The notes under the pieces: generated by a model
The model's database searches: none
The model's input: the letters and a program-made list of their open reading frames with translations, nothing else
What the model was told of the DNA's origin: nothing
Shown here: positions 1,845-28,011 of the stretch, piece after piece
How the letters are laid out: the number at the start of each line of letters is the position of its first letter
How positions within the stretch are numbered: position 1 is the stretch's first letter
Program-made: the position numbers and the translations under genes
Assembly (NCBI GenBank): GCA_030149525.1
Contig: JASBRJ010000341.1
Coordinates: 1 to 37,618 of the forward strand
Direction: 5' to 3'
Source of the DNA: a bacterium
GTDB lineage: Bacteria > Vulcanimicrobiota > Xenobia > Xenobiales > JADMJV01
DNA length: 37,618 nucleotides

Positions 1845-2342
1845 TTAGTCGGCTAAGATGTTGGTAGCCATTGAGGTGGCCGCGAGGGCGGAGCCACCGG
1901 TGGCAACCGCCATGATAGCTCCACCGATCCCGCTCTCCACCATGCCACCCACGGCGCCACCGGCAGCCGCTCCGAGAACGCCACCGACTACGGCAGCGGT
2001 CGCGGTGTGATTCGAGTTTCCGAGGAATCCGCCGCCCAGGTCGGCCATAAGCCCCACGGTCCCGCCGATACAGAGTCCCGCCGCGGCACCGCCGACGACA
2101 CCGGCCACGGTAGCGGCCGTTCCAAGGTTGTTGCCCGCAAAATATCCCAGAGCGCCTGCGCCTGCTGTGGCAACGGCGGCAAGGGCATACTTTCCGACCT
2201 TAACGGCCGTTGGAGTTTTCTCTGAGCCTGAGAACGTGAAGCTCTCTGCGGGGCCCTCCGACACTTCGACTTTGGCAGCGGGGTTCGCTTTCGCCCTCGT
2301 CGTAAGGGCGCTCGAGCCCATCAAAGATGTTTTAACCTGCAT
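1845..2342 (-). CDS. Glycine-zipper membrane-active protein, no signal peptide
   Basis: This encodes 165 residues. The start is the ATG at 2342, because GGAGGAA (minus strand, 2345-2351) lies directly upstream; the frame runs on to 2765 but that part is antisense to the DUF3253 gene. A polar N-terminus (MQVKTSLMGSSALTTRAKAN, then acidic) precedes about 110 residues of almost continuous Gly/Ala/Val with GxxxG spacing (GALGYFAGNNLG, VVGGAAAGL, VVGGVLGAAAGGAVGGMV). Such glycine zippers pack tightly in membranes and occur in membrane-inserting or pore-forming proteins and outer-membrane proteins. No Sec signal peptide is visible. The function is unknown. Similar compositions occur in three other genes of this window. 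Confidence 0.8.
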   Translation of the reverse strand: MQVKTSLMGSSALTTRAKANPAAKVEVSEGPAESFTFSGSEKTPTAVKVGKYALAAVATAGAGALGYFAGNNLGTAATVAGVVGGAAAGLCIGGTVGLMADLGGGFLGNSNHTATAAVVGGVLGAAAGGAVGGMVESGIGGAIMAVATGGSALAATSMATNILAD

Positions 2343-2344
2343 AT

Positions 2345-2351
2345 TTTCCTC
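2345..2351 (-). promoter_or_regulatory. Shine-Dalgarno that fixes the start of the 1845-2342 gene
   Basis: GGAGGAA on the minus strand lies two bases before the ATG-proximal AT, at good spacing. It shows that the real start is at 2342 and not at the upstream end of the open frame. Confidence 0.75.
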
Positions 2352-2501
2352 CAAGCAATGAGCCATCCGAGTTGCCGGCGGCAACCGTCTAAATCTCTCT
2401 GTTTGCGAGCTTTTTTCATGAGAATGCCCGCTTTGATTCCGGCTTAGCATAGTCGAGCGGTCTGAAAAGGTCATGAAAGCCGGCGAGCCCAATTCCTTTC
2501 G

Positions 2502-2762
2502 ATGACCGATCCTGAGCTGAAAGAAAAGATACGGCGCGAGATGCTCCACATAGCAGCCAAGCGAGGACCGGAAAAGTCGCTCTGCCCCTCCGAGGTCGCC
2601 AGAGCCGCTGCTGAGGATTGGCGACCGCTTATGCCGTTGGTGAGACAGATCGCTGCCGAAGAACTGGCCGAGGGCCGCATACGCGTGACTCAAAAAGGCA
2701 AAGACGTTCATCCGCTCGAGGCCCGGGGTCCCATCCGTTTGAGCGCCACCTATAATTGTTAA
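2502..2762 (+). CDS. DUF3253 family protein
   Basis: This encodes 86 residues. The sequence follows the DUF3253 pattern along its whole length: an N-terminal helix (EKIRREMLHIAAKRG), the motif 'CPSEVARA', then 'WRPLMPLVRQIAAEELAEG', 'VTQKGKDV' and a closing 'RGPIRLS'. The family is a small winged-helix-like domain of unknown function and is usually a stand-alone protein of this size. The Shine-Dalgarno is weak. The opposite frame is open across the gene, but the family match makes the plus strand the coding one. The gene is divergent from the glycine-zipper gene, so the 159 bases between them hold both promoters. Confidence 0.82.
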   Translation: MTDPELKEKIRREMLHIAAKRGPEKSLCPSEVARAAAEDWRPLMPLVRQIAAEELAEGRIRVTQKGKDVHPLEARGPIRLSATYNC

Positions 2763-2805
2763 CATCTTTCGTCAATCGGCCTCAAAATCTCACCCTTAAA
2801 AAACC

Positions 2806-2840
2806 CTTAAAGCCAGATATTTCAAGGCTTAAGAACCTTT
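2806..2840 (+). terminator. Weak hairpin after the DUF3253 gene
   Basis: CTTAAAGCC and GGCTTAAG form an imperfect stem with one bulge, followed by AACCTTTT. It is a possible weak terminator about 45 bases past the stop. The rest of the gap to 2966 is AT-rich and holds a 10-bp palindrome, CTGTTAACAG at 2848-2857, inside two tandem 11-base near-repeats beginning TCTGTTA. Confidence 0.35.
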
Positions 2841-2965
2841 TGTCCGTCTGTTAACAGTCTGTTAGCTAATCCTCAAGCCTGAGAGTCTAGATTGCAGATG
2901 TAGCTATGCTCTGCAGTTTCAGAGAACAACAGTAGCTGAACGCTCAGAAAGATCGTGAATAACTT

Positions 2966-3862
2966 ATGAATATAAAAAGCAGTGTTACGCCGAACGCAAC
3001 CCGCGTTCAGGCCAAACAAGCTCCTGCTGAACAAAAACAGCAGCAAGAGCCCAAAGAATATGTCATCAAACAAGATATGTATGACGTCGCGGACCGCTAT
3101 TCCGACAGCCGCCAAATGGCTAACGGAATCACCGGATTCGCCATCGGAGCCGTGACAGGAGCCGTAGACGGCGTCCTCAAGGCTGTCCCGGTTGCTTGGG
3201 AAATCGCCGAGAATGTCGTACAAGCCGAGACTATCGGCCCTAACCTGAAAGTTTTAGGCGTTCTGGCCGCCCCTATCGGTGGCGCTCTCTCCGCCGTCGC
3301 ATCCCCCTTCGTAGGAGCCTTCAAAGACGCAAGCTCCATGGTGAAGAATGGCGAGAACTACCCGCAGCCTCTGTCCAAAGACGGTTCCGCAGGTTACGCC
3401 AACGCAAAGTTCGACGCTGGAAACCCTTCCTTCTCGTCTGGAATCATGAAAAACCTGGAAGAGTTCGGCGCGGAAAAGCTCGGAGAAGGTGAAAAGCCCT
3501 ACGATGTGCCGATTCTTAGCCCTTTCTTCTCCGTCATCGGCGGAGTCGTATCCGGCGCCATCAGCGGCGTCGTAGGATTGGTCGGCGGACTGGCAGCCGG
3601 CGCGCTCACCACCACCAAAGAAGCAGCCGGAGCCATCTTCGGCAAGGACCAGAGCATCGGCAAACGTGTCGGTCGCCTGGCCACCTCTCCCCTCTACACT
3701 GTGACCATCCCCTACGGGCTGGTGAAAGAAGGCTTGAAAGAGTCCGTGCCTCGTGGCTTTGTAGACGGCTGGAAACATGGCCCCATCAAACCCACCGTCG
3801 ATACCGCAAAAGCTTCTGCCAAACTGGTAGCAGGCGTGATGAAAGAAGCATGGGAGCGATAA
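2966..3862 (+). CDS. Glycine-zipper protein, first of a tandem pair
   Basis: This encodes 298 residues. A disordered, Gln/Lys-rich head (MNIKSSVTPN ... QQQEPKEYVIKQ, residues 1-35) leads into hydrophobic Gly/Ala blocks: residues about 52-70 (GITGFAIGAVTGAVDGVL), about 95-118 (VLGVLAAPIGGALSAVASPFVGAF) and about 185-225 (FSVIGGVVSGAISGVVGLVGGLAAGAL). A polar loop of about 65 residues separates the second and third blocks. There is no signal peptide. It shares with the next gene the block 'IGPxLKxL...APxGG..AA..P' and a 'GEKPYDVPIL'-like segment before the third block, so the two are paralogues. The next gene starts one base after this stop. I do not recognise a named family. A membrane-inserting or membrane-shaping role is inferred from composition only. 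Confidence 0.85.
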   Translation: MNIKSSVTPNATRVQAKQAPAEQKQQQEPKEYVIKQDMYDVADRYSDSRQMANGITGFAIGAVTGAVDGVLKAVPVAWEIAENVVQAETIGPNLKVLGVLAAPIGGALSAVASPFVGAFKDASSMVKNGENYPQPLSKDGSAGYANAKFDAGNPSFSSGIMKNLEEFGAEKLGEGEKPYDVPILSPFFSVIGGVVSGAISGVVGLVGGLAAGALTTTKEAAGAIFGKDQSIGKRVGRLATSPLYTVTIPYGLVKEGLKESVPRGFVDGWKHGPIKPTVDTAKASAKLVAGVMKEAWER

Positions 3863-3863
3863 A

Positions 3864-4784
3864 ATGAACGTTAGTAGTGCAAGACCCCAAATTAAAACCC
3901 CTATGGCTGCCCAACAGCAGCCTCCTCAAAAGCCTGAGCCTCCCAAGAGCGATGCCGACTCCATGGTGGAAACCATTGTCGACAACACTTACCTGTCGGC
4001 CAACTTCGCAGCGTCCGGACTGACCGGCGCATTCTCCGGCACCGGCGCTTTCGTAACGACCGGACTTCCTGAGGCCGTCAAAACCGGCGCGTCTATTATC
4101 TATAACGTGGCCCGCACGGAGAAAATCGGACCGACCCTGAAGACGCTGGCTCTGGCCGCCGCTCTCCCTGTCACTGCCGTGGGCGCTGCCATCGCTGCCC
4201 CCGTGAGCTTGCTGGCAGGTGTTTGGCAAGGCGCTGGAGAGGTGGACACGAAAGTTCCTCGCCAGTTCACCGTAGGTCAAGCCGCCAAGGAAGCTTACAC
4301 AGAAGTTCGTGGTGGTATCAAAGACTTCGCCGGTGGGATCAAAGAGGAGATGAAAGAACTGGGCGACTACAAACTGAAGCCCGGCGAAAAGGCTATCGAT
4401 ATTCCTCTCATCCAACTGGGCAAAACCCTGATCATGGGTGCCGTTGGAGCTGCTGTGGGCGGAATCGCCGGTGCCGTGAGCGCTATCGCTTCCACCGCCT
4501 CAGAAGCCGGACGCGGTGTGGTTAACGCCTTCACCGATTCGAAACTCAACGTCGGAGAGAAACTGTTCGCAGCTGGAACAAGTGTTGTGAGTGCCCCCAT
4601 TCACGGTACTCTCTACGGAGCCCGAACCGCTCTCGGAACCTTCGGAAACGCTCTGGCCACAACCTGGGACAAGGACTCTATGACCGAAGGCGCTCGTAGC
4701 ATCTTCAACAATTCGGTAGACGGAATGGCGGCGGCCTTCGCCCCCGAAACCGTCCTCACCATGGAACGACCCAAGCAGCAGTAG
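3864..4784 (+). CDS. Glycine-zipper protein, second of a tandem pair
   Basis: This encodes 306 residues and is a paralogue of the preceding gene, from which it is separated by one base, so the two are surely co-transcribed. The layout is the same: a disordered Gln/Pro head (residues 1-30), a Gly/Ala block (LTGAFSGTGAFVTTG), 'KIGPTLKTLALAAALPVTAVGAAIAAPVSLLAGV', a polar middle rich in Lys/Glu (FAGGIKEEMKELGDYK), 'PGEKAIDIPL', then a long zipper (MGAVGAAVGGIAGAVSAIAS). No Sec signal or lipobox is visible. The pair might form a hetero-oligomer in a membrane; this is inferred from the paralogy and the operon. The gene ends at a strong bidirectional terminator. Confidence 0.85.
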   Translation: MNVSSARPQIKTPMAAQQQPPQKPEPPKSDADSMVETIVDNTYLSANFAASGLTGAFSGTGAFVTTGLPEAVKTGASIIYNVARTEKIGPTLKTLALAAALPVTAVGAAIAAPVSLLAGVWQGAGEVDTKVPRQFTVGQAAKEAYTEVRGGIKDFAGGIKEEMKELGDYKLKPGEKAIDIPLIQLGKTLIMGAVGAAVGGIAGAVSAIASTASEAGRGVVNAFTDSKLNVGEKLFAAGTSVVSAPIHGTLYGARTALGTFGNALATTWDKDSMTEGARSIFNNSVDGMAAAFAPETVLTMERPKQQ

Positions 4785-4804: not shown

Positions 4805-4834
4805 AAAACGGCGGGTGTCACACCCGCCGTTTTT
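4805..4834. terminator. Bidirectional terminator between convergent genes
   Basis: A 13-bp perfect stem (AAAACGGCGGGTG / CACCCGCCGTTTT) with a TCA loop carries T runs on both strands. It lies between the stop of the zipper pair (4784) and the stop of the vWA gene (4847), and should end both transcripts. Confidence 0.93.
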
Positions 4835-6261: not shown

Positions 6262-8247
6262 TCAAATCTGACTCAAAAAATCTTCGAAGTCCGGGGGGAC
6301 AGGCACTCCGAGCTCTTCTTCGTAGGCCTCCCGAGCCGACTGGAAAAGCTTGACCCCAGCCGCTCTTTCTCCCAAAGCGCCGTGGGCTTCGAAACAGCTC
6401 CGGTAGGCGTCGTCGTTCAAAGGATCCAGGCGAAGAATTTCTTGCCAACACGACAGCGCTTGTCGCCATTTTTTACGGCTCTGAAAATAATGCCCAAGCT
6501 GACTCAAACAGTCTAACTGAAGTGAAACAGCCTTTTCTCGAAAAAGAAAGGTCCATTCCTGATAGTCCCCTTCGAGAAAATCCCCTCGGAACAGTCTTCT
6601 GGCGTCCTGCAGAAGCTGCAACGCCTGCCTCGGCGTCTGATCGGCTAGAGCCGCTCGCCCCTCTTTGATTTTGCGGGTGACAAGACACAGGTCTGTTTCT
6701 ACCAGAGAGCCGAGGGTATATCCGTCTTTCACTCGACGAACAATGTCACCACCCTCCACCGGTTCCCGCCTCAGACAACGGCGGATTTGAGAGATACTAT
6801 TGTGAAGGGAATGCCGGGCCCGCTCTCCACCCTGAGGCCAAAATTGATCGAGGAGTTCCTCCTCGGTCACCACCCTGGGGAAATTGGCCGAGAGAAAAGA
6901 AAAGAGCAACCTGTCTTTTTTGCTCTTCCAAACGGCGTCCTTCAGAAGCTCCCCCTGAAAGCTCACCTGCAACGGCCCCAGTAGACCTATCCTATAGGGT
7001 TTCTCCAGAACGACGGTAACAGCGCCTGGACGCTCTCCTAAGAGTCTCGACGACTCTTGAGGATAACGTCGCTGGCTCTCCCAAAAGTAGGGGGAGTCTT
7101 TCCAGGCTGAGAGCGCCTCGTCCACGCCTGCTGCAGCCAGAAGAAGATCGCAGCAGGCGATCTCCTCGTGCTCCTCCCACTGGGCAAAGACTCGGCGCGC
7201 CTCCTTGAGCTCTTCTTCCGGGCGCCGGCTCACTCGAGCCAGGAGAAGGCTGAGTCTGGCCCCAAGCAGGCCGAGCTCATGCTCTACGATCAGACTTCGC
7301 AACTTCTCCCCGCGACTCACGACCTCCGCCTCACGACCAAGCTCCAACAGCAGTTGCAACTCCTCCAGCCGAACCTCCGCCTCCAGTTCGGGATAACAGT
7401 CGGGTTGGTCGAGAACCTCCCTGTAAAGAGTTTGAGCCGAGTCAAAGCGGCCCACGAGCCGATGCTTTTGAGCCAATCGAAAGAGATTTTCCACCCCGAC
7501 CCAGGAGTTGATCCAGAACGGAGGGTTTGAATGTCCGTCGTTGCTATGGGAAGAGTCTCGACAGGCTCGCCAAACCAAGCGGGCTTCAGGGGAAAGCTTG
7601 TCGTCCCCTATCTCCTCCGCCCGTTGAGCCTGGTTCACCAGCAGTGCCAACCGACTCAAGCCCGCCGTGTCGGCCAACACCGTCGGCTCCACATCGTAAA
7701 CGAGAGAAGCTAGGTAAACCTGTCTCACCCGAGGCGGTGAGAACCCCACCGAGGACGCCTGAGCAGCAGCAGAAGCCGCCCGATCCTTCACTAAGGAGGG
7801 GCACTTCAAAACAGTGCTCAGGATAGACAAGAGATTGTCTTGCGTAGAAAAGAGGGAGGCGTCCCCAGGCCGCTCCAGCTGCCTCAGGCGCAACGCTCGC
7901 TGAAGACTCGCAAGAAAAGTGGGTCCGTCAAACGGTTTAAGGAGATAATCGTCCACCCGCAGCTTGAGAGCTCGAATTGGAGCATCAGGGCTGGCGTAAC
8001 CCGTTATGACGATGTAACGAGCCGCCGGTTGCAGCTTCTTCAACTCGCTGATCGCTTGAATCCCGTCGATGCCCGGCATCCTTACATCACAGACGACCAG
8101 ATCGAAAGATTGTGATTGAGCCCGGGCGATCGCCTCCTCACCGGACTGGGCGGTGACAGTCCAATAGCCGTTCTCGGAGGCTTCCAGTTGCAGGCTGGAA
8201 AGGACCAACTCGTCGTCGTCGACGATGAGGAGTTTAGGGCGTCTCAT
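6262..8247 (-). CDS. Response regulator with winged-helix and BTAD (SARP-like) output
   Basis: This encodes 661 residues. An N-terminal receiver (1-120) has the acidic pocket 'VDDDE', the phospho-acceptor D54 ('VCDVRMPG'), T82 and K104 ('LLKPFD'). A helical, TPR-like middle (about 150-400) follows. The C-terminus holds an OmpR-type winged helix (about 415-500: 'LLGPLQVSF', 'VVTEEELLDQFWP', 'SLHNSISQIRRCLR', 'DGYTL') and a bacterial transcriptional activator domain of TPR helices (about 505-655). The last two are the arrangement of SARP activators, which are seldom joined to a receiver. It should be a phosphorylation-controlled DNA-binding regulator. Its ATG overlaps the last 14 bases of the histidine kinase gene, so the pair is translationally coupled and the kinase is the likely phosphodonor. 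Confidence 0.88.
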   Translation of the reverse strand: MRRPKLLIVDDDELVLSSLQLEASENGYWTVTAQSGEEAIARAQSQSFDLVVCDVRMPGIDGIQAISELKKLQPAARYIVITGYASPDAPIRALKLRVDDYLLKPFDGPTFLASLQRALRLRQLERPGDASLFSTQDNLLSILSTVLKCPSLVKDRAASAAAQASSVGFSPPRVRQVYLASLVYDVEPTVLADTAGLSRLALLVNQAQRAEEIGDDKLSPEARLVWRACRDSSHSNDGHSNPPFWINSWVGVENLFRLAQKHRLVGRFDSAQTLYREVLDQPDCYPELEAEVRLEELQLLLELGREAEVVSRGEKLRSLIVEHELGLLGARLSLLLARVSRRPEEELKEARRVFAQWEEHEEIACCDLLLAAAGVDEALSAWKDSPYFWESQRRYPQESSRLLGERPGAVTVVLEKPYRIGLLGPLQVSFQGELLKDAVWKSKKDRLLFSFLSANFPRVVTEEELLDQFWPQGGERARHSLHNSISQIRRCLRREPVEGGDIVRRVKDGYTLGSLVETDLCLVTRKIKEGRAALADQTPRQALQLLQDARRLFRGDFLEGDYQEWTFLFREKAVSLQLDCLSQLGHYFQSRKKWRQALSCWQEILRLDPLNDDAYRSCFEAHGALGERAAGVKLFQSAREAYEEELGVPVPPDFEDFLSQI

Positions 8248-9463
8248 GAAACGTCATGGAAAAGGTCGTCCCCTCGCCTGGACTGGTTCTGACCTTCACC
8301 TCAACTTCATGTTGCTGAAGAATCTTGAAACTCACGGAAAGACCGAGCCCCGTTCCCCGGCCCACCGGTTTCGTGGTGTAAAACGGTTCGAAAATACGCT
8401 CTTTAACCTCTTCGGTCATGCCGATACCGTTGTCGGTGATCTCCAAAGTGTGCGCCTGTAAAGACACTTGAATCCGTGGTTTGTCAACACCCTCAATCGC
8501 ATGCAAGGCGTTGGAAAGCAGATTCAAAATGACCTGACTCAGGTTCGCCGCCTCCCCCTCTACCTGCAACGGCTCAAGTTGGGTCACAACTTCAACGTCG
8601 CGGAGTTGGTAGGACATCAATTCCAGAGTCTGCTCCACAACTTCATCCAGTTGCACAACACCTCTTCGCGCCCGACTGGGGTGAGTGAAATTGAGCAGCC
8701 TCTCGATAATACCTCGACAGCGCTGCACCGCTTTCTCCATGAGAACGAGACGCTTCGTCACTTTCTCGTCGGACACTCGTCGGCCCACCGCGTCGAGATT
8801 CAAAGCCAGAGCGCACAAAGGATTGTTCACCTCATGGGCGATACCGGCCGCCAGTTCTCCCACTGCGGCTAACTTTGAAGCGTTGAGAAGCTCTGCTTGA
8901 GTCTGGCTCAGTTCGTCTCTGGCTTGAGCTAAGGCTTTCTCGTACATCTGTTCCCGCTCAGCGTGAAGGGCGGCGTTCTCCAAGGCCCCTGCAGCTTGCC
9001 CGGCCAAAGCCTCTATCAAGACCTGCTGCTTCTCCCGAAAAACCCCGTCTCGGATTCTGTTATCCAGGTAAATCACCCGACGAGCTTTCCCTTGCCAACT
9101 CAAGGGCGTACACAAAATCGAACGGACTCCACTCACCACAACACTTGGTGCGGCGTAGAAACGGTTATCTCTCACCGCATCGAGGGAGAGAACAGTGGTC
9201 CCCGATTTGACTGCCTGCTTCACCACGGTCTGGCTACAAACATGCGAGTGGTTCTGCTCGTTCATCTCCGGATCGGTGATACTGATCTCAGGGACCCATT
9301 CCGAACCTTCCTTTTTCAGAATGTGAGCCGAACTCGCTCCCACAATTTTCGTGGCCTGTTCCAGAAGACGATGAAGAACCTCGTCGAGATCAAGTGTTGA
9401 ATTGAGGAGCCGACTGGCACTTATCAGCAAGTCCAAATGCTCTTTTTCCAGGTTGTCCGACAC
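8234..9463 (-). CDS. GAF-domain sensor histidine kinase
   Basis: This encodes 409 residues with no membrane segment, so it acts in the cytosol. A GAF domain covers about 10-165 ('LLNSTLDLDEVLHRLLEQA', 'ILCTPL', 'VIYLDN', 'ALAGQAAGALENAAL'), then a coiled coil and a HisKA dimerisation helix with H210 in 'AGIAHEVNNPL'. The ATPase domain has the N box (N314, N318), the G1 box 'DNGIGM' (344-349) and the G2 box 'GRGTGLGL' (368-375). All catalytic residues are present. The ligand of the GAF domain cannot be read from sequence. It overlaps the REC-BTAD regulator by 14 bases, its probable partner. It is divergent from the hybrid kinase at 9543, with a palindrome between the two starts. Confidence 0.93.
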   Translation of the reverse strand: MSDNLEKEHLDLLISASRLLNSTLDLDEVLHRLLEQATKIVGASSAHILKKEGSEWVPEISITDPEMNEQNHSHVCSQTVVKQAVKSGTTVLSLDAVRDNRFYAAPSVVVSGVRSILCTPLSWQGKARRVIYLDNRIRDGVFREKQQVLIEALAGQAAGALENAALHAEREQMYEKALAQARDELSQTQAELLNASKLAAVGELAAGIAHEVNNPLCALALNLDAVGRRVSDEKVTKRLVLMEKAVQRCRGIIERLLNFTHPSRARRGVVQLDEVVEQTLELMSYQLRDVEVVTQLEPLQVEGEAANLSQVILNLLSNALHAIEGVDKPRIQVSLQAHTLEITDNGIGMTEEVKERIFEPFYTTKPVGRGTGLGLSVSFKILQQHEVEVKVRTSPGEGTTFSMTFHETP

Positions 9464-9478
9464 TCTTTAGTTCTTTGC

Positions 9479-9521
9479 CCTGCGGGAGAAAGTACCTTGA
9501 GAGAAGGCTCCCTCCCGCAGG
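9479..9521. promoter_or_regulatory. Perfect 10-bp palindrome between divergent kinase genes
   Basis: CCTGCGGGAG at 9479-9488 and CTCCCGCAGG at 9512-9521 are perfect inverted copies separated by 23 bases. The centre lies almost midway between the two divergent start codons (9463 minus, 9543 plus). It has no T run and does not follow a gene end, so a dimeric-regulator operator or a structured 5' leader is more likely than a terminator. Confidence 0.5.
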
Positions 9522-9542
9522 CAGGCGAAAACCTTTAGGATA

Positions 9543-12500
9543 ATGGGTCGCCCTCGGGGAATAGTGTGTTGCCTTCTATGGCTGGCTTTGCTATTCGTCG
9601 GCCTTATTCCGGGAGCCGCCCAGGAGGGAAAGCTCGGCGACGACACCTCCGTCACCCTGACGGAGAAAGAGAGAGCCTGGCTCAAAGCCCACCCGACCAT
9701 TCGCCTCTCCGGTGACCCCCACTGGCTCCCGTTCGAAACCTTCACCCCTGAAGGCGAGTATCACGGCATCGTTCCCGACTATCTTCAGTTGATTGAGAAG
9801 TACTCCGGAATAGAATTTAAGGTGGTTCCCAACCAAAAGTGGGCCGACACCATTCGCATGGCGAAGGCTCGCGAACTCGATGTCATCTCTGCCATGGAGA
9901 GTGAGGAGCGCAAAGAATATCTGTCCTTCACTCACAACTACTTCGAAGTCCCCATCGTCATCGTCACCCGAAAAAGTCACGAAGATATTGAAAGCCCTGC
10001 CGATCTGCAGGGGCAGCGCATCGCCATAGCCAGCGGCTACGGTTTCACCGAAGAATTGAAAGCCCAATATCCGGATCTTGATTATCGAGAGGTCGAAACG
10101 GCCACGGAAGGCCTCCGAGGGGTATCCTTGGGCAAGTACGATGCCATCGTGGAGTCGTTTGCCACCAGTAACTACAAAATGGTTGAGCTTGGACTCAGCA
10201 ATCTCAAAATCAACGGCGACACCAATCTCCTCATGAGACTTGGACTGGCAGTTCGCAAAGACTGGCCGGAACTTGTGAGTATTCTGAATAAGACCATGGA
10301 TGCCATCCCGGCTTCCGAACTCAACGCTATCAAGCAAAAGTGGCTGACCGCGCCTGATACGGAAAGCCGAGACTCCAGCCTCTCCCTTTCCGTCGACGAG
10401 AAAGCGTGGATCGAAAAGCATCCCATCGTCAAGGTGGGCGTGGATCCTGTCTTTGCTCCTCTAGAATTCCAAGATCAGAAGGGTCATCACAAAGGCATCT
10501 CGGCCGATTTTCTGGCCCTCATTTCCAACAGGACGGGCATCAAGTTTCAACCCTCGAAAAATCTCAGCTGGACCCAGATCCAGACCGGGGTACGAGAACG
10601 AAATCTGGATATGTTCAGCGCGGTAACACGCACCGCAGAACGAGAGCAGTACGCTCTCTACACCCAGCCCTACATCAATCTGCCTCTCATGATCTTCGCG
10701 CGCGAGGAGCAGCCTTATCTGACCGATATGAGTGAATTGAACTACGGGAAGACAGCTATCGTAAAAGGTTATGCGGTCATTCCCATGGTGGAGGAAGATT
10801 ACCCGGAAATTGAGATCGTCCAGGTCGACGACGTGCAATCGGCCCTTCAAGCGCTGGCCTCCGGTCAGGTCGATTACTACATAGACTCTTTGCTGACCAC
10901 CTCTCATCACATTCAGGAATTGGGTTACGCCAACGTCAAAGTTGCAGGGGAAACTCCTTATCGTTTTCCCATGTCTATGGCGGTGAGAAGCGACTGGCCG
11001 GAACTTCGAAGCATCCTGGACAAGGCGCTGGAGTCTATCACCGAAGAGGAGCGCCGGGAGATTTTCGCTCGTTGGCGTTCCGTGAAAGTCGAATACGGCT
11101 TCGATTACTCCTTAGTTTGGAAACTGGGAATTCCCACAGGTTTTCTTCTTCTAGCCTTCTTCTACTGGAACCGCCGTCTGGACAGCGCCGTACGATCTCG
11201 AACTTCGGAGCTTAGCAAGATCTCAGAGAGGATGGCACTGGCCACCCAGTCGGCCCACATCGGAATCTGGGATTGGGAGCTAGAAAGCGATAAACTCGAG
11301 TGGGACGATAAGATGTACGAACTCTACGGAGTGAGTCGCGAGGATTACCCCGACGCCCGAAAAGCTTGGAACAAGTGCGTCCACCCCGACGACCGGGCCA
11401 GAGCCGAGCGAGAATTGGAAAGAATCCGCGAGGGTCGAATAGGCCTGGGGTCGGAATATCGAGTCATTCATCCCGACAATACGGTTCACTACTTGGAGGC
11501 CTACGCGGCCTTGCATCGCGACCGCAACGGAAAGCCCGAGCGAATCATCGGAATCAACTGGGACATCAGTGCCAGAAAGCGAGCCGAGCTAGACCTTAGA
11601 AACCACCTGGACGGTCTGGAGGGACTCATCGAGACCCGCACAGAGGAGCTTCAGGTAGCTCTGGAGCGAGCTGAGGCGGGAACCAGAGCCAAGAGTGATT
11701 TCTTGGCCAATATGAGCCATGAAATCCGCACCCCGATGAACGCCATTATCGGCCTCAATCACCTGCTGATGAAGTCGGACGAACTGTCCTCCAAAGATGC
11801 CGACTATGCCAAAAAAATCGGTCGAGCCGCCCACAATCTTCTCCGGATCGTGAACGATATTCTGGACTTCTCAAAGATTGAAGCCGGGAAACTCGACATA
11901 GAATCCACCAATTTTGATCTCTCGGAGGTCTTTATCAACCTTGCAAATGTGGTGGGGCTGAGGGCTCACAATAAAGGCCTCGAACTCATCTTTGCCACGA
12001 ACAGCGACGTTCCCACCCAACTGGTAGGGGACCCCCTGCGGTTGGGACAGGTTCTGCTCAATCTTTGTAGCAACGCCGTCAAATTTAGCGACGAGGGAGA
12101 TATCGTGGTGGAGACCACGGTGCTCGAAAAAACGGCCAAAGGGACGCATCTGAGGTTTGCTGTGAAGGACACCGGTCCGGGCCTTTCCCCCGAGATGCGC
12201 GACGGGCTGTTCCAAGCTTTCACCCAGGCCGATGCCTCCACGACTCGCAAGCACGGAGGGACGGGGCTGGGCCTGACCATCAGCAAGAAACTGGTGGAAA
12301 TGATGGGCGGCACCATCGGGGTGGACAGTGAACTCGGCCAGGGAAGCACTTTTTGGTTCAGCCTGTGGTTCGAGACTGCCGAGTCGGCCACCCCTCGTGA
12401 CTTGAAACCGCCGAAGGAACTTCAGGGCCTCAAGATTCTCGTGGTCAACGACAACGAGATTGCGCGCCGGCTTATGTGTGAGTCCATCAAGCGGTTCGGC

Positions 12501-13928: not shown

Positions 13929-14842
13929 ATATGGCTGCAGAACAGAAACAAGTCATATTAGTGGTGGACGACATGCCCGCCAACATTCAAATCTTAGCCA
14001 GCCTCCTCGGTGAGCGATATATCGTGAAAGCGGCTCGCAGCGGGGAGAAAGCGCTGGCTATTGCTCGCTCCGAAAATCCGCCCGACCTTATCCTTCTCGA
14101 TGTCGTTATGCCCGGGATGGACGGATACCAGGTGTGTCGACAACTCAAAAAAGAACCTGATACGGCCAATATTCCTATCATCTTCGTCACCTCATTGAGT
14201 GACGAAGAGGACGAAGAGAAGGGCCTCAAAATGGGGGCCGTCGACTATATCACCAAGCCTTTCCGAACCGCCATCGTTATGGCTCGGGTCGAAAATCATC
14301 TGAACCTCAAACGTTACCAGGATCTTCTGAAGCGGCAGTCGACTCTCGACGGACTCACCGGACTTCCCAACCGCCGCGCCTTCGACGAACTGATCGAGCA
14401 GGAATGGAGACGTGGGGCCCGGCTTAAGACCATGCTCAGTCTCATTATGCTCGACGTAGATCATTTTAAGCAGTTCAACGACCACTACGGCCACCTGGCC
14501 GGTGACGATTGCCTTCGCCAAGTCGGTCAAGAACTGGCGAGCGTCGGCCGTTCCATCGACTTCGTGGGTCGTTACGGAGGGGAAGAATTCGCCTGCATTC
14601 TTCCTCACACGGATCTGGAGGGAGCCGAAAAGGTTGCGGAGAGGCTGAAGAAAGCGATTATCGGCCTCGGAATCACCCACGAATATTCCAGTGCAGCTTC
14701 TCAAGTGACTATCAGCATGGGAGTGGCCACAGCCTTGCCCGTCAACGAAAGAGATCCTGAAGAGCTTATCGATGCCGCCGACAAGATGCTCTACGAAGCC
14801 AAGGGCAGCGGCCGCAACTGTGCTCGTAGCACTCGGCTCTGA
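13925..14842 (+). CDS. REC-GGDEF diguanylate cyclase (PleD/WspR-like)
   Basis: This encodes 305 residues from a GTG that overlaps the hybrid kinase stop by four bases. The receiver domain (about 8-130) has 'VVDDM', the acceptor D59 in 'LLDVVMPG' and K in 'ITKPF'. The GGDEF domain (about 145-300) has the active-site signature GGEEF at 218-222, metal-binding D in 'LDVDHFKQFND' and the inhibitory site R209-S-I-D212 exactly five residues before GGEEF. It should therefore make c-di-GMP from two GTP when phosphorylated and be product-inhibited. Position and overlap with the phosphorelay kinase make that kinase its likely activator. A PilZ receptor gene lies about 5 kb away. ATG 13931 is the alternative start. 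Confidence 0.95.
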   Translation: MNMAAEQKQVILVVDDMPANIQILASLLGERYIVKAARSGEKALAIARSENPPDLILLDVVMPGMDGYQVCRQLKKEPDTANIPIIFVTSLSDEEDEEKGLKMGAVDYITKPFRTAIVMARVENHLNLKRYQDLLKRQSTLDGLTGLPNRRAFDELIEQEWRRGARLKTMLSLIMLDVDHFKQFNDHYGHLAGDDCLRQVGQELASVGRSIDFVGRYGGEEFACILPHTDLEGAEKVAERLKKAIIGLGITHEYSSAASQVTISMGVATALPVNERDPEELIDAADKMLYEAKGSGRNCARSTRL

Positions 14843-15401
14843 GCAGCGAAGCCTTTACAAAAAGTTAACTTCAGCGCACCATTCTCAAAACAATCTTCGA
14901 GCAGCTCTCTTTACGCTTGACGGAAGCTATGTAAAGGTCCTCACTGCTATTTTAAACTCTATCCTACCCAAGAAATCGACTCTTGCCCAAGCCATTGTTG
15001 GTCCCGCCGTTCGGCCCGCAGTTCAAGGTTTTCTCAACCCCACTTGCGATCCCACCGACTCCTTCACTCCTTCCCAGGAGAAAGACCCGGTCATCGGCCT
15101 GGTGGCGAAAGGAGCCGGTGTCGCTGCAGGAACCGTAGCCGGCCTGGCCACGACCGCGGTGTGCGCCACTCAATACCCCATAGCGGCCATCTGCGTGGGA
15201 ACAGCCACCTGCGCTGCGGTGCTCAACAGTGATCAGGCCGATGATTTACCTGTGAGCAAACCCGTGGCGGCCTTGGGGGCCGGTATCTTGGCCGCCGCCT
15301 ATGCTCCGGCCGTGGCGGGTGCCGTGGTCGCCGTAGGCACGGAAGAACTGGTCACCGATCAGGTGGAGAAGTTCCTGAGCGGGAGGAAGAACAGGCCGTG
15401 A
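14820..15401 (+). CDS. Gly/Ala-rich hydrophobic protein of unknown function, start uncertain
   Basis: The frame is open from 14772 and ends with TGA at 15399-15401. Between the cyclase stop (14842) and about 15100 it holds no ATG, GTG or TTG, so the start is either inside the cyclase gene (GTG 14820 or ATG 14772), a rare codon such as ATT, or the internal GTG at 15102. None has a convincing Shine-Dalgarno. I give GTG 14820 (193 residues) as a coupled start. Two hydrophobic Gly/Ala segments are clear: 'VAKGAGVAAGTVAGLATTAV' with 'PIAAICVGTATCAAVL', and 'VAALGAGILAAAYAPAVAGAVVAVG'. The C-terminus is charged (VEKFLSGRKNRP). It resembles the other zipper proteins of the window. It overlaps the next gene by four bases (GTGA). 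Confidence 0.6.
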   Translation: MLVALGSEQRSLYKKLTSAHHSQNNLRAALFTLDGSYVKVLTAILNSILPKKSTLAQAIVGPAVRPAVQGFLNPTCDPTDSFTPSQEKDPVIGLVAKGAGVAAGTVAGLATTAVCATQYPIAAICVGTATCAAVLNSDQADDLPVSKPVAALGAGILAAAYAPAVAGAVVAVGTEELVTDQVEKFLSGRKNRP

Positions 15402-21231: not shown

Positions 21232-22266
21232 TTAATTAGCACTGTCCTCCGGCCAACCGAAGAAGTCTCTCATCTGGTCATAGACCTTGGCGTTGTTATT
21301 GAGATGATTGTGGTGTTGTCCTTTGAGCTTGATCGGTTCATCACCCGGCAGGCCCACCGAGTCTGCCGCCACCAGGCCGTCGCCGTCGGTCACAGGATTC
21401 CATCCGGCTTTGGCCGAGGGGGTTCCCAATCCCGCCACCAACCTCACTTCGGTCACGTTAGCCTTCTGCTCATCCCATCGACTGTTAAGGTCTTGAAGCA
21501 ATGGGTTCTCTCGCTCCGGACGGAGCCACTCCAGAGCCTTAACATCGCCGGGCAACAAACCGGCTAGCGAGATCGCCCACTTGATATCTCGGTCCAAAAC
21601 ATGCAGCGACCATTTGGCGAACTCAGAACCCCGATTCGGAGTACCCAGAATAAGGAGCTGGTCGATGTCTTTTCCACCGTTGTCCAAATACTCGCGAGTC
21701 GCCAAGCCCCCCATGCTGTATGCAGAGACATCGAGTTTGTCGGCTCCCGTAATCGATTTCACCGCTTTCAGATTTCGACTCAGTTCCTGAGCCGACCGAT
21801 CCGGCGGCAAACGAACATCACTGAAGACGACTTCAAACACTTTTCCGTCCGTGTCCGCTACCTGCGAGTCGTCGGCCCGCGACGTGCAATCACGATCATG
21901 GAAGAACTGACCGTCCTGAACGAAGTAAAGGGTCCCACCGTTGCGGCCGCCCTCCAAAAGCTTGTCGGCAAGGGGATCGAAAGCGTCGCGAGTCGTCTTC
22001 CATCCCGGAATCATGACAAAAGGCTGATCTATTTTCACCGGCGGGGAATCCGCAAGCGGGGGCTTCTTCTTGTACTTGGTCGCTCGATGGTTGGCCAGCG
22101 CTCGATAGGTCAGACCCAAACTCAAGAGTCTTGCGCTGACGGTAAAATCTTCAACAACGTCTCCAAAGCCTGAAGTCTTTGTCCGGCTTTCCGGCTTTTC
22201 GCTAGACGCCCGGTTGAAGACAGAAACCGACGGAAGGGTTCTTCTGGTAGTGTTGTGGATTTGCAT
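21232..22266 (-). CDS. Alpha/beta-hydrolase, lipase-like
   Basis: This encodes 344 residues. A polar Arg/Ser/Thr-rich N-terminus of about 40 residues precedes an alpha/beta-hydrolase fold: 'QPFVMIPGWKTTRDAFDPLADKL' carries the oxyanion strand, the nucleophile is S184 in 'SAYSMGGLATREYL' (an AxSxG elbow as in Bacillus LipA), then 'LILGTPNRGSEFAKW', a likely acid in 'TDGDGLV' and His in 'QHHNHL'. This is typical of LipA/PGAP1-type lipases. There is no Sec signal peptide although lipases of this kind are mostly exported. GGTGG lies 9 bases before the ATG. It is 49 bases downstream of the giant kinase gene on the same strand and may be in its operon. Confidence 0.85.
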   Translation of the reverse strand: MQIHNTTRRTLPSVSVFNRASSEKPESRTKTSGFGDVVEDFTVSARLLSLGLTYRALANHRATKYKKKPPLADSPPVKIDQPFVMIPGWKTTRDAFDPLADKLLEGGRNGGTLYFVQDGQFFHDRDCTSRADDSQVADTDGKVFEVVFSDVRLPPDRSAQELSRNLKAVKSITGADKLDVSAYSMGGLATREYLDNGGKDIDQLLILGTPNRGSEFAKWSLHVLDRDIKWAISLAGLLPGDVKALEWLRPERENPLLQDLNSRWDEQKANVTEVRLVAGLGTPSAKAGWNPVTDGDGLVAADSVGLPGDEPIKLKGQHHNHLNNNAKVYDQMRDFFGWPEDSAN

Positions 22267-26739: not shown

Positions 26740-28011
26740 TTACAAACGTTTTTCCACTTCTTGCAAAGCTTTGTGGGCGTTAAGCCGCCCTCCGGTGAGC
26801 ACTTTCCCCTCCAAGTCGGATGAAGCTTCTACACTGTTCAGGAGACCCTCACGGATCTCCTCATTGGTTAGATTCGGGTTCATTGTCAGCATCAGTCCTG
26901 CCACGCCGGAAACATGAGGCGTGGCCATCGAGGTTCCTGACTTGTATCCATAGCTGTCGTCGGGAACCGTGGAATAGATGGAAGAGCCCGGCGCGGCCAG
27001 GTCGACTGTCTGACGGCCGAAATTGGAAAAGCTTGACAACCCCCCGCTTCGGTCGATGGAGGCCACGGCGACTCCGTTGGAAACATCGTAGTTGGAAGGG
27101 TAATGAGAGTGTTCATCATTATCCTTGGTATCGTTCCCGGCGGCAAAAACATGAAAAGCCTTGCTTTTTTGGAAGGCTCTCTCGGTCGAACGGCTTCTCC
27201 CGCCGCCTCCCCAGGAATTGGAGGTCACTCGGGCCCCATGACGACCGGCGTAAGAGATCCCCCGCAGCACAGCCGACGTAGAAGTCCTCGGCTTCTCTTT
27301 GTTATTGAAGATCTTGATCGGCATGATGCGGGCCTCCCAGTTGACACCCACCACTCCGATACCGTTGTTACCCACGGCTCCTATGGTTCCCGCACAATGA
27401 GTACCGTGACCGTCTTTGTCGTCAGGGTCGCCGTTCTGATAGTAGGCGTTATAGCCGTGAACATCGTCCACCACACCGTTTCCATCGTCGTCCTTGCCGT
27501 TTCCAGGAATCTCGCCGGGGTTGGTCCACAGGTTGGCGGCCAGATCCGGGTGGTCGGCATCGATCCCGGTGTCTAGAACAGCAATAATGGGCCCGTTGCT
27601 CCGGCTCCCCACAGTCTTCGACCACGCTTGGGGAGCATCGATATCTATCTGTTTCCCCCAGCGGTTGTGAAGACCCCACAGGCTGCCCAGGTCGTCAGGT
27701 GTTCGAGTGTCCGATTGCCGCTCAGCAAGGCTGAGAGAAATCTCCTGATCTTGCTCGGCGTAATCCACTCTCTCGTCTCTCTCCAGTTGCGACAGAGCCG
27801 ACTGGGCCCTTGCTGGGTCGACCGCTTCCACCAGAACCAGATCGCCTCCGAAACCGGGGAAATGCTCCTCAGGGAATTGGAAGGTTTCAAGATGCCGGAA
27901 GCCGTCCTCCTGCAGAAACTCCAGGTCCTGTTGAGAGTGGATCCGATCTTTGAGACTAACGATGTAGCGATTGGATATGGGAGCGTAGGACGCGCCGGTT
28001 TGTGTAAGCAA
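26740..28011 (-). CDS. Subtilisin-like serine protease (S8), no signal peptide
   Basis: This encodes 423 residues. The start is a TTG at 28011, supported by GGAGG 7 bases upstream. An I9-type propeptide (about 14-92, 'RYIVSLKD' to 'DYAEQDQEI') precedes an S8 catalytic domain with D147 ('VLDTGID'), H202 ('GHGTHCAGT'), the oxyanion N293 ('AAGND') and S361 ('GTSMATPH'). An Asp/Asn-rich loop 'GNGKDDDGNGVVDDVHGYNAY' (170-190) is probably a calcium site. The propeptide shows that it matures by self-cleavage, typically outside the cell, yet the 13 residues before it (LLTQTGASYAPIS) are no Sec signal. A paralogue lies at 31.4 kb. The kinase fusion follows 53 bases downstream on the same strand. Confidence 0.93.
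   Translation of the reverse strand: MLTQTGASYAPISNRYIVSLKDRIHSQQDLEFLQEDGFRHLETFQFPEEHFPGFGGDLVLVEAVDPARAQSALSQLERDERVDYAEQDQEISLSLAERQSDTRTPDDLGSLWGLHNRWGKQIDIDAPQAWSKTVGSRSNGPIIAVLDTGIDADHPDLAANLWTNPGEIPGNGKDDDGNGVVDDVHGYNAYYQNGDPDDKDGHGTHCAGTIGAVGNNGIGVVGVNWEARIMPIKIFNNKEKPRTSTSAVLRGISYAGRHGARVTSNSWGGGGRSRSTERAFQKSKAFHVFAAGNDTKDNDEHSHYPSNYDVSNGVAVASIDRSGGLSSFSNFGRQTVDLAAPGSSIYSTVPDDSYGYKSGTSMATPHVSGVAGLMLTMNPNLTNEEIREGLLNSVEASSDLEGKVLTGGRLNAHKALQEVEKRL

Follow-up and report, generated by a model that had tools for sequence, protein, structure and literature searches.

The window analyzed in this study, a 37,618-nucleotide stretch of bacterial DNA (GenBank assembly GCA_030149525.1, contig JASBRJ010000341.1, positions 1 to 37,618), contains two adjacent plus-strand genes, A (2966..3862, 298 aa) and B (3864..4784, 306 aa), that encode a tandem pair of glycine-zipper paralogues. 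A and B represent a new, internally duplicated, non-Sec protein family. From their sequences, we propose that both are exported, membrane-inserting glycine-zipper proteins and probably substrates of a flagellar-type export gate, a reading to which we assign a probability of roughly 0.4. We found that the tandem pair is constrained and non-Sec, that similar N-terminal heads are present on exo-enzymes, and that there is a separate FlhA clade without flagellin.

Tandem arrangement and distribution of the A/B family

In the pairwise comparison, A and B matched at 29% over 148 aa (E 5e-9) and are thus paralogues; with a gap of a single base between the genes, this agrees with the first-pass annotation of the DNA, which had described the two as tandem paralogues with a single base between them. 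The most conserved alignment columns of the family include the IGPxLK and GEKxxDxP segments, which that annotation had named as shared. Directly after B, a likely terminator on the plus strand (4808..4834), with a 10-bp G+C-rich perfect stem, a 3-base loop and a T run, was read by eye from the sequence; this hairpin was not in the output of a consensus terminator scan. A and B are probably co-transcribed.

Single-sequence searches at E 0.01 revealed matches to A in 14 of 58 genomes and to B in 17 of 58, and tandem pairs of the A+B type were present in 10 of the 58 (G000-G005, G010, G011, G015 and G016, where G000 is the window's own genome; G012, in which A lies at a contig end, is outside this count). 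With a 13-row profile, the family was detected in 16 of 149 genomes of Eremiobacterota (families f1, f2, f3, f4, f6, f9 and f14), the phylum in which the relatives found by sequence place the window's genome. This supports a family shared with relatives, and the profile search gave 4-10 matches in each f1 genome. Ka/Ks among four relatives was 0.075-0.135 for A and 0.087-0.170 for B, and these low ratios mark A and B as real genes constrained by purifying selection. Between the relatives and the window, the ratio was 0.24-0.46, with synonymous sites near saturation.

Neither A and B nor two further glycine-rich proteins of the window, called here the 1845 protein and the 14.8-kb protein, had a Pfam match at E up to 1, an NCBIfam match over the cut-off or a PADLOC match at E up to 0.1; one NCBIfam match of the 14.8-kb open reading frame (ORF), at E 0.48, was meaningless. 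The earlier statement that no named family can be recognized therefore stands. The A/B profile was also without a hit among solved structures, and A had no match in plasmid records (phage records were not searched). Matches to tape-measure proteins in PHROG (B, E 3.5e-5; A, E 9.7e-4) were judged to be probably compositional; matches of that kind can be obtained from Gly/Ala-rich helices, and the surroundings of the pair were not searched for phage genes.

Internal duplication and glycine zippers

A 15-row alignment of the A/B family revealed two similar halves, each protein being an internal duplication of a helical unit of ~100 residues. When the N half of this alignment was compared with the C half in hhalign, the probability was 97.3 and the E-value 2e-11 over 101 columns. 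In A, the N-terminal unit covers residues 45-150 (3098..3415, plus strand) and the C-terminal unit about residues 180-283 (3503..3814, plus strand), both as placed by hhalign. In each unit, a glycine-rich helix is followed by a second helix, which closes with the IGPxLK segment (or the equivalent of this segment), and then by a third stretch of hydrophobic residues. Some relatives in genus g2 have longer open frames (361-636 aa) with additional matches to the C-terminal unit. The same genus has a second tandem pair, composed of long A/B relatives with more repeat units (L091:7103-8164 and 8167-9699; also in L092 and L093).

The GxxxG spacing that had been attributed to the glycine-rich proteins was only partly confirmed. 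In comparison with composition-shuffled bodies, GxxxG pairs were in excess in two proteins, A (11 versus 4.7, p 0.002) and the 1845 protein (11 versus 6.3, p 0.02), and were not above the shuffled level in the other two (B, 5 versus 4.0, p 0.38; 14.8-kb protein, 2 versus 1.0, p 0.25). All four proteins contained at least one hydrophobic peak above a threshold of 1.6 (19-residue Kyte-Doolittle), the peaks being 2.01 for A, 1.95 for B, 1.75 for the 1845 protein and 1.98 for the 14.8-kb protein.

N-terminal heads on A, B and exo-enzymes

The head of A (residues 1-30; 2966..3055, plus strand) is polar, starts with MNI and has no D or E in its first 12 residues, and that of B (residues 1-32; 3864..3959, plus strand) is polar and Pro/Gln-rich and starts with MNV. 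The general layout of these heads is M-x-I/V followed by ~30 polar residues and, at times, by a second motif, P-x-[DE]-S-x-x-[LF]-S, which is not clear in A and not canonical in B. In A, B and the 1845 protein, a lone I or V at position 3 makes up the hydrophobic part of the head, and disorder was judged from composition. A Sec-like hydrophobic N-terminus was not found in these three proteins, whose best 10-residue Kyte-Doolittle means were -0.15 (A), 0.46 (B) and 0.71 (1845 protein), in agreement with the earlier claim that signal peptides are lacking.

Position 3 or 4 was aliphatic or Pro in 20 of the 21 A/B family members read, compared with 169 of 316 background proteins, and D and E were avoided in the first 12 residues by all 21, compared with 87 of 316; the members are mutually related, so p-values from these counts overstate. 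Pseudomonas type III effectors are described as being aliphatic or Pro at position 3 or 4, free of acidic residues in the first 12 and composed of more than 10% Ser in the first 50 (PMC3338616). The A/B family follows the first two rules and departs from the serine rule.

Similar heads were found, in samples from the own genome and one relative and among neighbours in relatives, on glycine-zipper proteins, subtilases, a clostripain (C11), an M36-like peptidase and a weakly matched lipase-like protein. On the enzymes among these, the head takes the place in which one would expect a Sec signal. The headed subtilases included four strong S8 matches and one partial match, and three of them combined a fervidolysin-type prodomain with a MAM domain. 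The lipase-like protein is encoded in the window (21232..22266, minus strand); it is alpha/beta-hydrolase-like, has an MQI head and no Sec signal, and gave weak, below-cut-off matches to Lipase_2, DUF915 and DUF7379. A large expansion of subtilases was noticed, with 34 matches in the own genome (one of them in the window, 26740-28011) and 31 in G006. A disordered Pro/Gln-rich head was also seen on an RNB-domain ribonuclease (L134:3325-5094), which would be odd cargo for export.

For a wider comparison, one best-scoring subtilase was taken per genome from 30 genomes, and 27 were read (those of G007 and G015 were cut at an edge, and G026 gave no tblastn hit). A hydrophobic N-terminal run was present in 5 and absent from 22, which represent 16 distinct heads, and 19 of the 22 had an aliphatic residue at position 3 or 4. 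A motif expression that had been fixed beforehand occurred in 2 of the 22 heads, compared with a shuffled mean of 0.12 (p 0.0085). The strict motif was found in 2 of 67 proteins of G033 and in none of 244 proteins of two f12 genomes; the strict-motif samples of G033 and G000 were partly chosen by glycine-zipper hits. A first, slightly different motif expression exceeded shuffles in G000 once it was combined with M-x-[IV] (six matches; shuffled mean 0.6, maximum 4); in G001, the combination was found once (mean 0.4).

We also found that heads and glycine-zipper bodies occur together. In stretches not picked by glycine-zipper hits, 3 of 7 headed proteins in G000 had such a body, compared with 14 of 199 others (p 0.013), and the corresponding counts in G001 were 3 of 8 and 8 of 285 (p 0.002). 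The head definition in this test ignores the second motif, and the G001 counts include one doubtful ORF with a TTG start (L157:538-1080) and come from stretches of three contigs with FHIPEP matches. A first co-occurrence count (zippers in 11 of 23 headed proteins in G000 and 10 of 17 in G001) was discarded, since glycine-zipper hits had guided the choice of many of the stretches in it. Starts of the form M-x-I-x-[STPA]-[STRN], where the first x is N, Q, D, K, E or M, were present in 5 of 206 proteins in G000 (0.67 expected) and 2 of 293 in G001 (0.42 expected), a pattern chosen after the head/zipper result had been seen.

A second flagellar-type export gate

FlhA-, FlhB- and FliR-like genes each occur at least twice in the own genome, which also has three FliF matches. 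One gate set (contig C177) is accompanied by FliF, FlgM and flagellin matches. The second gate (C27) comprises FliM-, FliN-, FliO-, FliP-, FliQ-, FliR-, FlhB- and FlhA-like genes, and scores over the flagellar cut-offs were obtained for FliN, FliP, one FliQ, FlhB and FlhA; FliF was not found on the C27 stretch read. The second-gate FlhA scored 788.5 against the flagellar FlhA model (cut-off 772.1) and 585.6 against TIGR01399 (SctV; cut-off 692.25), and because it lies above the flagellar and below the SctV cut-off, the second gate differs from a standard injectisome gate. Between the second-gate flhB and flhA lies a gene (L131:6969-8795, G000:C27) that matched, over cut-off, a bifunctional homocysteine methyltransferase/methylenetetrahydrofolate reductase, and the third FliF-like protein (L276:5267-6805) is encoded on a 9.9-kb contig on which no other flagellar gene was recognized.

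Among the 58 genomes, 21 had flagellin matches, 56 FHIPEP matches and 53 FliF matches. No flagellin match was found in any of the 8 f3 genomes or in G001, G005, G006, G018, G020-G024, G028, G031, G033 and others, several of which are incomplete drafts. Seven of the 8 f3 genomes, together with G001, G005, G006 and G033, had FliF matches in spite of being flagellin-negative, and all had FHIPEP matches. The first cultured species of the phylum was reported to have no flagella and no flagellin gene (PMC9758169).

A tree was built from 31 FlhA proteins, namely the best-scoring one of each of 30 genomes and the flagellar copy of G000. As evident from this tree, 12 of the proteins form a clade with support of 100/100 and a stem of 1.66; long branches among the flagellar sequences drew a warning from the tree program. 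The clade contains the proteins of 10 flagellin-negative genomes and one of the two full-length copies in each of G000 and G002, and the second full-length FlhA of G000 falls outside it. Among the subtilases read, each of the 12 genomes was represented by one or more that have no hydrophobic N-terminus. Because the lineages are related, this joint presence of gate and head is a co-occurrence and not proof of a link.

Matches to the cytosolic docking domain of FlhA/SctV alone (FHIPEP positions from ~280) were observed in none of the 26 genomes of families f12, f15 and f16 and in 30 of the 32 other genomes. Such docking-domain-only proteins include L133:5381-6844 and L134:6426-7559, and one protein carries an XRE-type helix-turn-helix.

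The 1845 and 14.8-kb proteins

The 1845 protein (1845..2342, minus strand, 165 aa) is a glycine-zipper protein with a canonical head, whose second motif, PAESFTFS, lies at 2229..2252 on the minus strand. Its most likely start is at 2342, behind GGAGG, and for this reason we take it to be a protein of 165 aa rather than the 306-aa ORF ending at 2765. No homology to A was found (best E 0.08). A DUF3253 gene, recognized by a profile match, lies at 2502-2762 between the 1845 protein and A. The cluster of three proteins proposed in the first-pass annotation is thus reduced to the pair and a non-homologous neighbour on the minus strand, behind the DUF3253 gene. Structure hits of the 1845 protein (phosphoribosyltransferases with a best E of 0.001, a transporter and one small chain) were regarded as chance matches of a Gly/Ala-rich sequence.

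The 14.8-kb ORF (14772-15401) and the cyclase gene overlap at the end of the latter. From 14823 to 15000, the frame of the ORF contains no ATG, GTG or TTG and only ATT and ATC, and the start of the protein is uncertain because these usual start codons are missing; an ATT start at 14949 is possible, as is a sequencing error. With the ATT option, the glycine-zipper protein would extend over 14949..15401 on the plus strand, with its second head motif, PTDSFTPS, at 15051..15074 (plus strand). The sole alignment between this protein and the 1845 protein is PTDSFTPS with PAESFTFS, which is within the head and outside the glycine zipper.

Discussion

We propose that A and B insert into membranes through their glycine-zipper helices and that their head represents a variant export leader, which would also serve the extracellular-type proteases and the lipase-like protein, on which we found similar heads. 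This leader would most likely route A and B through the flagellar-type type III gate that is retained without flagellin. Outside the cell, A and B would probably oligomerize in the membrane of prey, of competitors or of the own surface and, by analogy with known glycine-zipper proteins, may permeabilize or remodel that membrane. The pair is missing from many genomes with the second gate, and this distribution favours a role as cargo over one as a core component of the machine.

Several known systems resemble parts of this proposal. Glycine-zipper proteins and GxxxG runs have been tied to killing or to the permeability of membranes in Cdz (PMC5380434) and Tde1 (PMC10240207). Caulobacter Cdz is a two-protein glycine-zipper bacteriocin, with CdzC and CdzD of 86 and 84 aa, and resembles A and B in that two glycine-zipper proteins without Sec signals (type I export in Cdz) may together damage membranes; in contrast, the Cdz cluster includes transporter and immunity genes (PMC5380434), while A and B are ~300 aa long, internally duplicated and without a neighbour family common across loci. 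In the type VI effector Tde1, N-terminal GxxxG helices are proposed to permeabilize target membranes, although Tde1 uses another secretion system and is a DNase (PMC10240207), whereas no enzyme domain was found in A and B.

The two-part head layout resembles the experimentally known export signal of early flagellar subunits, in which a hydrophobic part at residues 2-5 is followed by a second motif at residues 36-40 (PMC8983047). The heads differ from that signal in that their hydrophobic part consists of one I or V, the second motif, where present, is [DE]S-x-x-[LF]-S and not the published FlgD motif, and the cargo consists of exo-enzymes and glycine-zipper proteins. Flagellum-derived non-flagellar type III systems (PMC3459982) likewise retain a flagellar-type gate without flagellin; they differ from the present case, where the second-gate FlhA scores over the flagellar and under the SctV cut-off. 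A type III-like basal body is also used in a predator by the needleless type III secretion system (T3SS*) of Myxococcus (PMC12075869).

A number of observations weigh against our reading of A and B. The canonical second motif is missing from the heads of A and B themselves and is present in the 1845 and 14.8-kb proteins, and at least five Ser in the first 50 residues were found in 7 of 21 A/B family members compared with 76 of 316 background proteins, which is not an enrichment. Among 15 subtilases of the own genome inspected by eye, 7 had heads of this type, 2 had Sec or lipoprotein signals and 6 had short or unclear starts, and of the 22 non-hydrophobic subtilase heads, 13 had an acidic residue within the first 12 and only 9 avoided it. 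The start codons were picked by our own scoring. Ten heads searched alone against Pfam matched neither FlgM nor another export family; some FlgM proteins of the phylum are vaguely similar in front, and homology of the heads to FlgM was rejected. In an all-against-all comparison, no neighbour gene family was common to the window's pair and the pair loci of relatives.

The motif statistics also contain adverse results. A looser form found in 11 of the 22 subtilase heads (1.28 in shuffles) was adapted after the heads had been viewed, and this fitting counts against it. The strict motif was seldom found (10 of 353 G000 proteins, 9 of which have a disordered head; 1 of 341 G001 proteins, and that one lacks such a head), and it was also present in a control window at residues 113-160 (5 proteins of G000, 2 of G001 and none of the other samples), a result that slightly lowered our confidence. 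The first expression alone was not above shuffles (7 versus 4.3 in G000; 5 versus 2.5 in G001). Finally, AlphaFold models from ten-row alignments were all helical and of low confidence (pLDDT 40.1 and 45.2 for the pair), so that membrane insertion of A and B, which the first-pass annotation had also considered, is suggested only by composition and a low-confidence all-helical model.

A somewhat unlikely alternative is that the head is an export leader for another, unrecognized route, such as type I export, an extracellular contractile system or a new machine. The heads on exo-enzymes also support such a route, and the gate and the leader are linked only by co-occurrence among related lineages. 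A pair of adjacent, mutually homologous genes that resemble ABC exporters by eye lies ~0.5-5 kb from A/B in the four g2 loci with enough flank (G001-G004); however, this gene family was found only in those loci and is present neither in the window nor in the f3 and f4 loci. The layout, moreover, fits early flagellar subunits, and a separate gate lineage is present, both of which favour the flagellar-type gate.

We consider it unlikely that A and B are intracellular or inner-membrane scaffolds whose head is a flexible tether or an intracellular targeting tag. Hydrophobic helices under purifying selection would suit a scaffold, as would the 4-10 family matches per f1 genome. The similar heads, however, precede proteases with prodomains and MAM domains, and because such enzymes normally work outside the cell, the internal membrane scaffold raised in the first-pass annotation is less favoured than export.

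It is quite improbable that the heads are no signal at all and are look-alikes composed of low-complexity spacers and A-rich start codons that aid translation initiation. Such an origin would account for the great variation of the heads, for the rarity of the strict motif and its occurrence in the control window, and for the failure of the first expression to exceed shuffles by itself, and some of the statistics are on patterns chosen after looking; but it does not explain why heads are enriched with particular cargo in samples not picked by glycine-zipper hits, or why a similar motif appears in subtilases of several families of the phylum when 0 of 244 proteins in two f12 genomes carry it.

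Injectisomes have paired hydrophobic translocators, and by analogy A and B, being tandem hydrophobic non-Sec proteins that are paired in 10 of 58 genomes, might be the translocon pair of a type III system, but this is very improbable because of their distribution (a second-clade FlhA is present without a family member in G013, G018, G021, G024, G028 and G031 and with a single member in G033), and A and B, having no Pfam match at E up to 1, match no translocator family.

Export of A and B through the flagellar-type gate may be one case of a broader pattern, which we regard as possible and doubtful. In Eremiobacterota outside f12, f15 and f16, a flagellum-derived, non-flagellar type III machine might act as a general secretion system for many proteins per genome that carry a two-part leader (M-x-I ... 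[DE]S-x-x-[LF]-S), including subtilases, other proteases, lipases and glycine-zipper proteins like A and B, for predation or surface attack, with the stand-alone FlhA docking domains as adaptors or regulators. Predatory behaviour has been suggested on other grounds for another lineage of the phylum (PMC9259500). In open-access titles and the beginnings of abstracts, we found no description of such a leader or of a non-flagellar gate in Eremiobacterota (subscription journals, preprints and supplements were not covered).

If the reading of the heads as export leaders is true, it would provide a route to list the secretome of a widespread and almost uncultured phylum, and would show that these bacteria employ a flagellar-type export gate for membrane-active proteins as well as exo-enzymes. 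A and B would form a new family of membrane proteins with a directly testable pore or scaffold activity.

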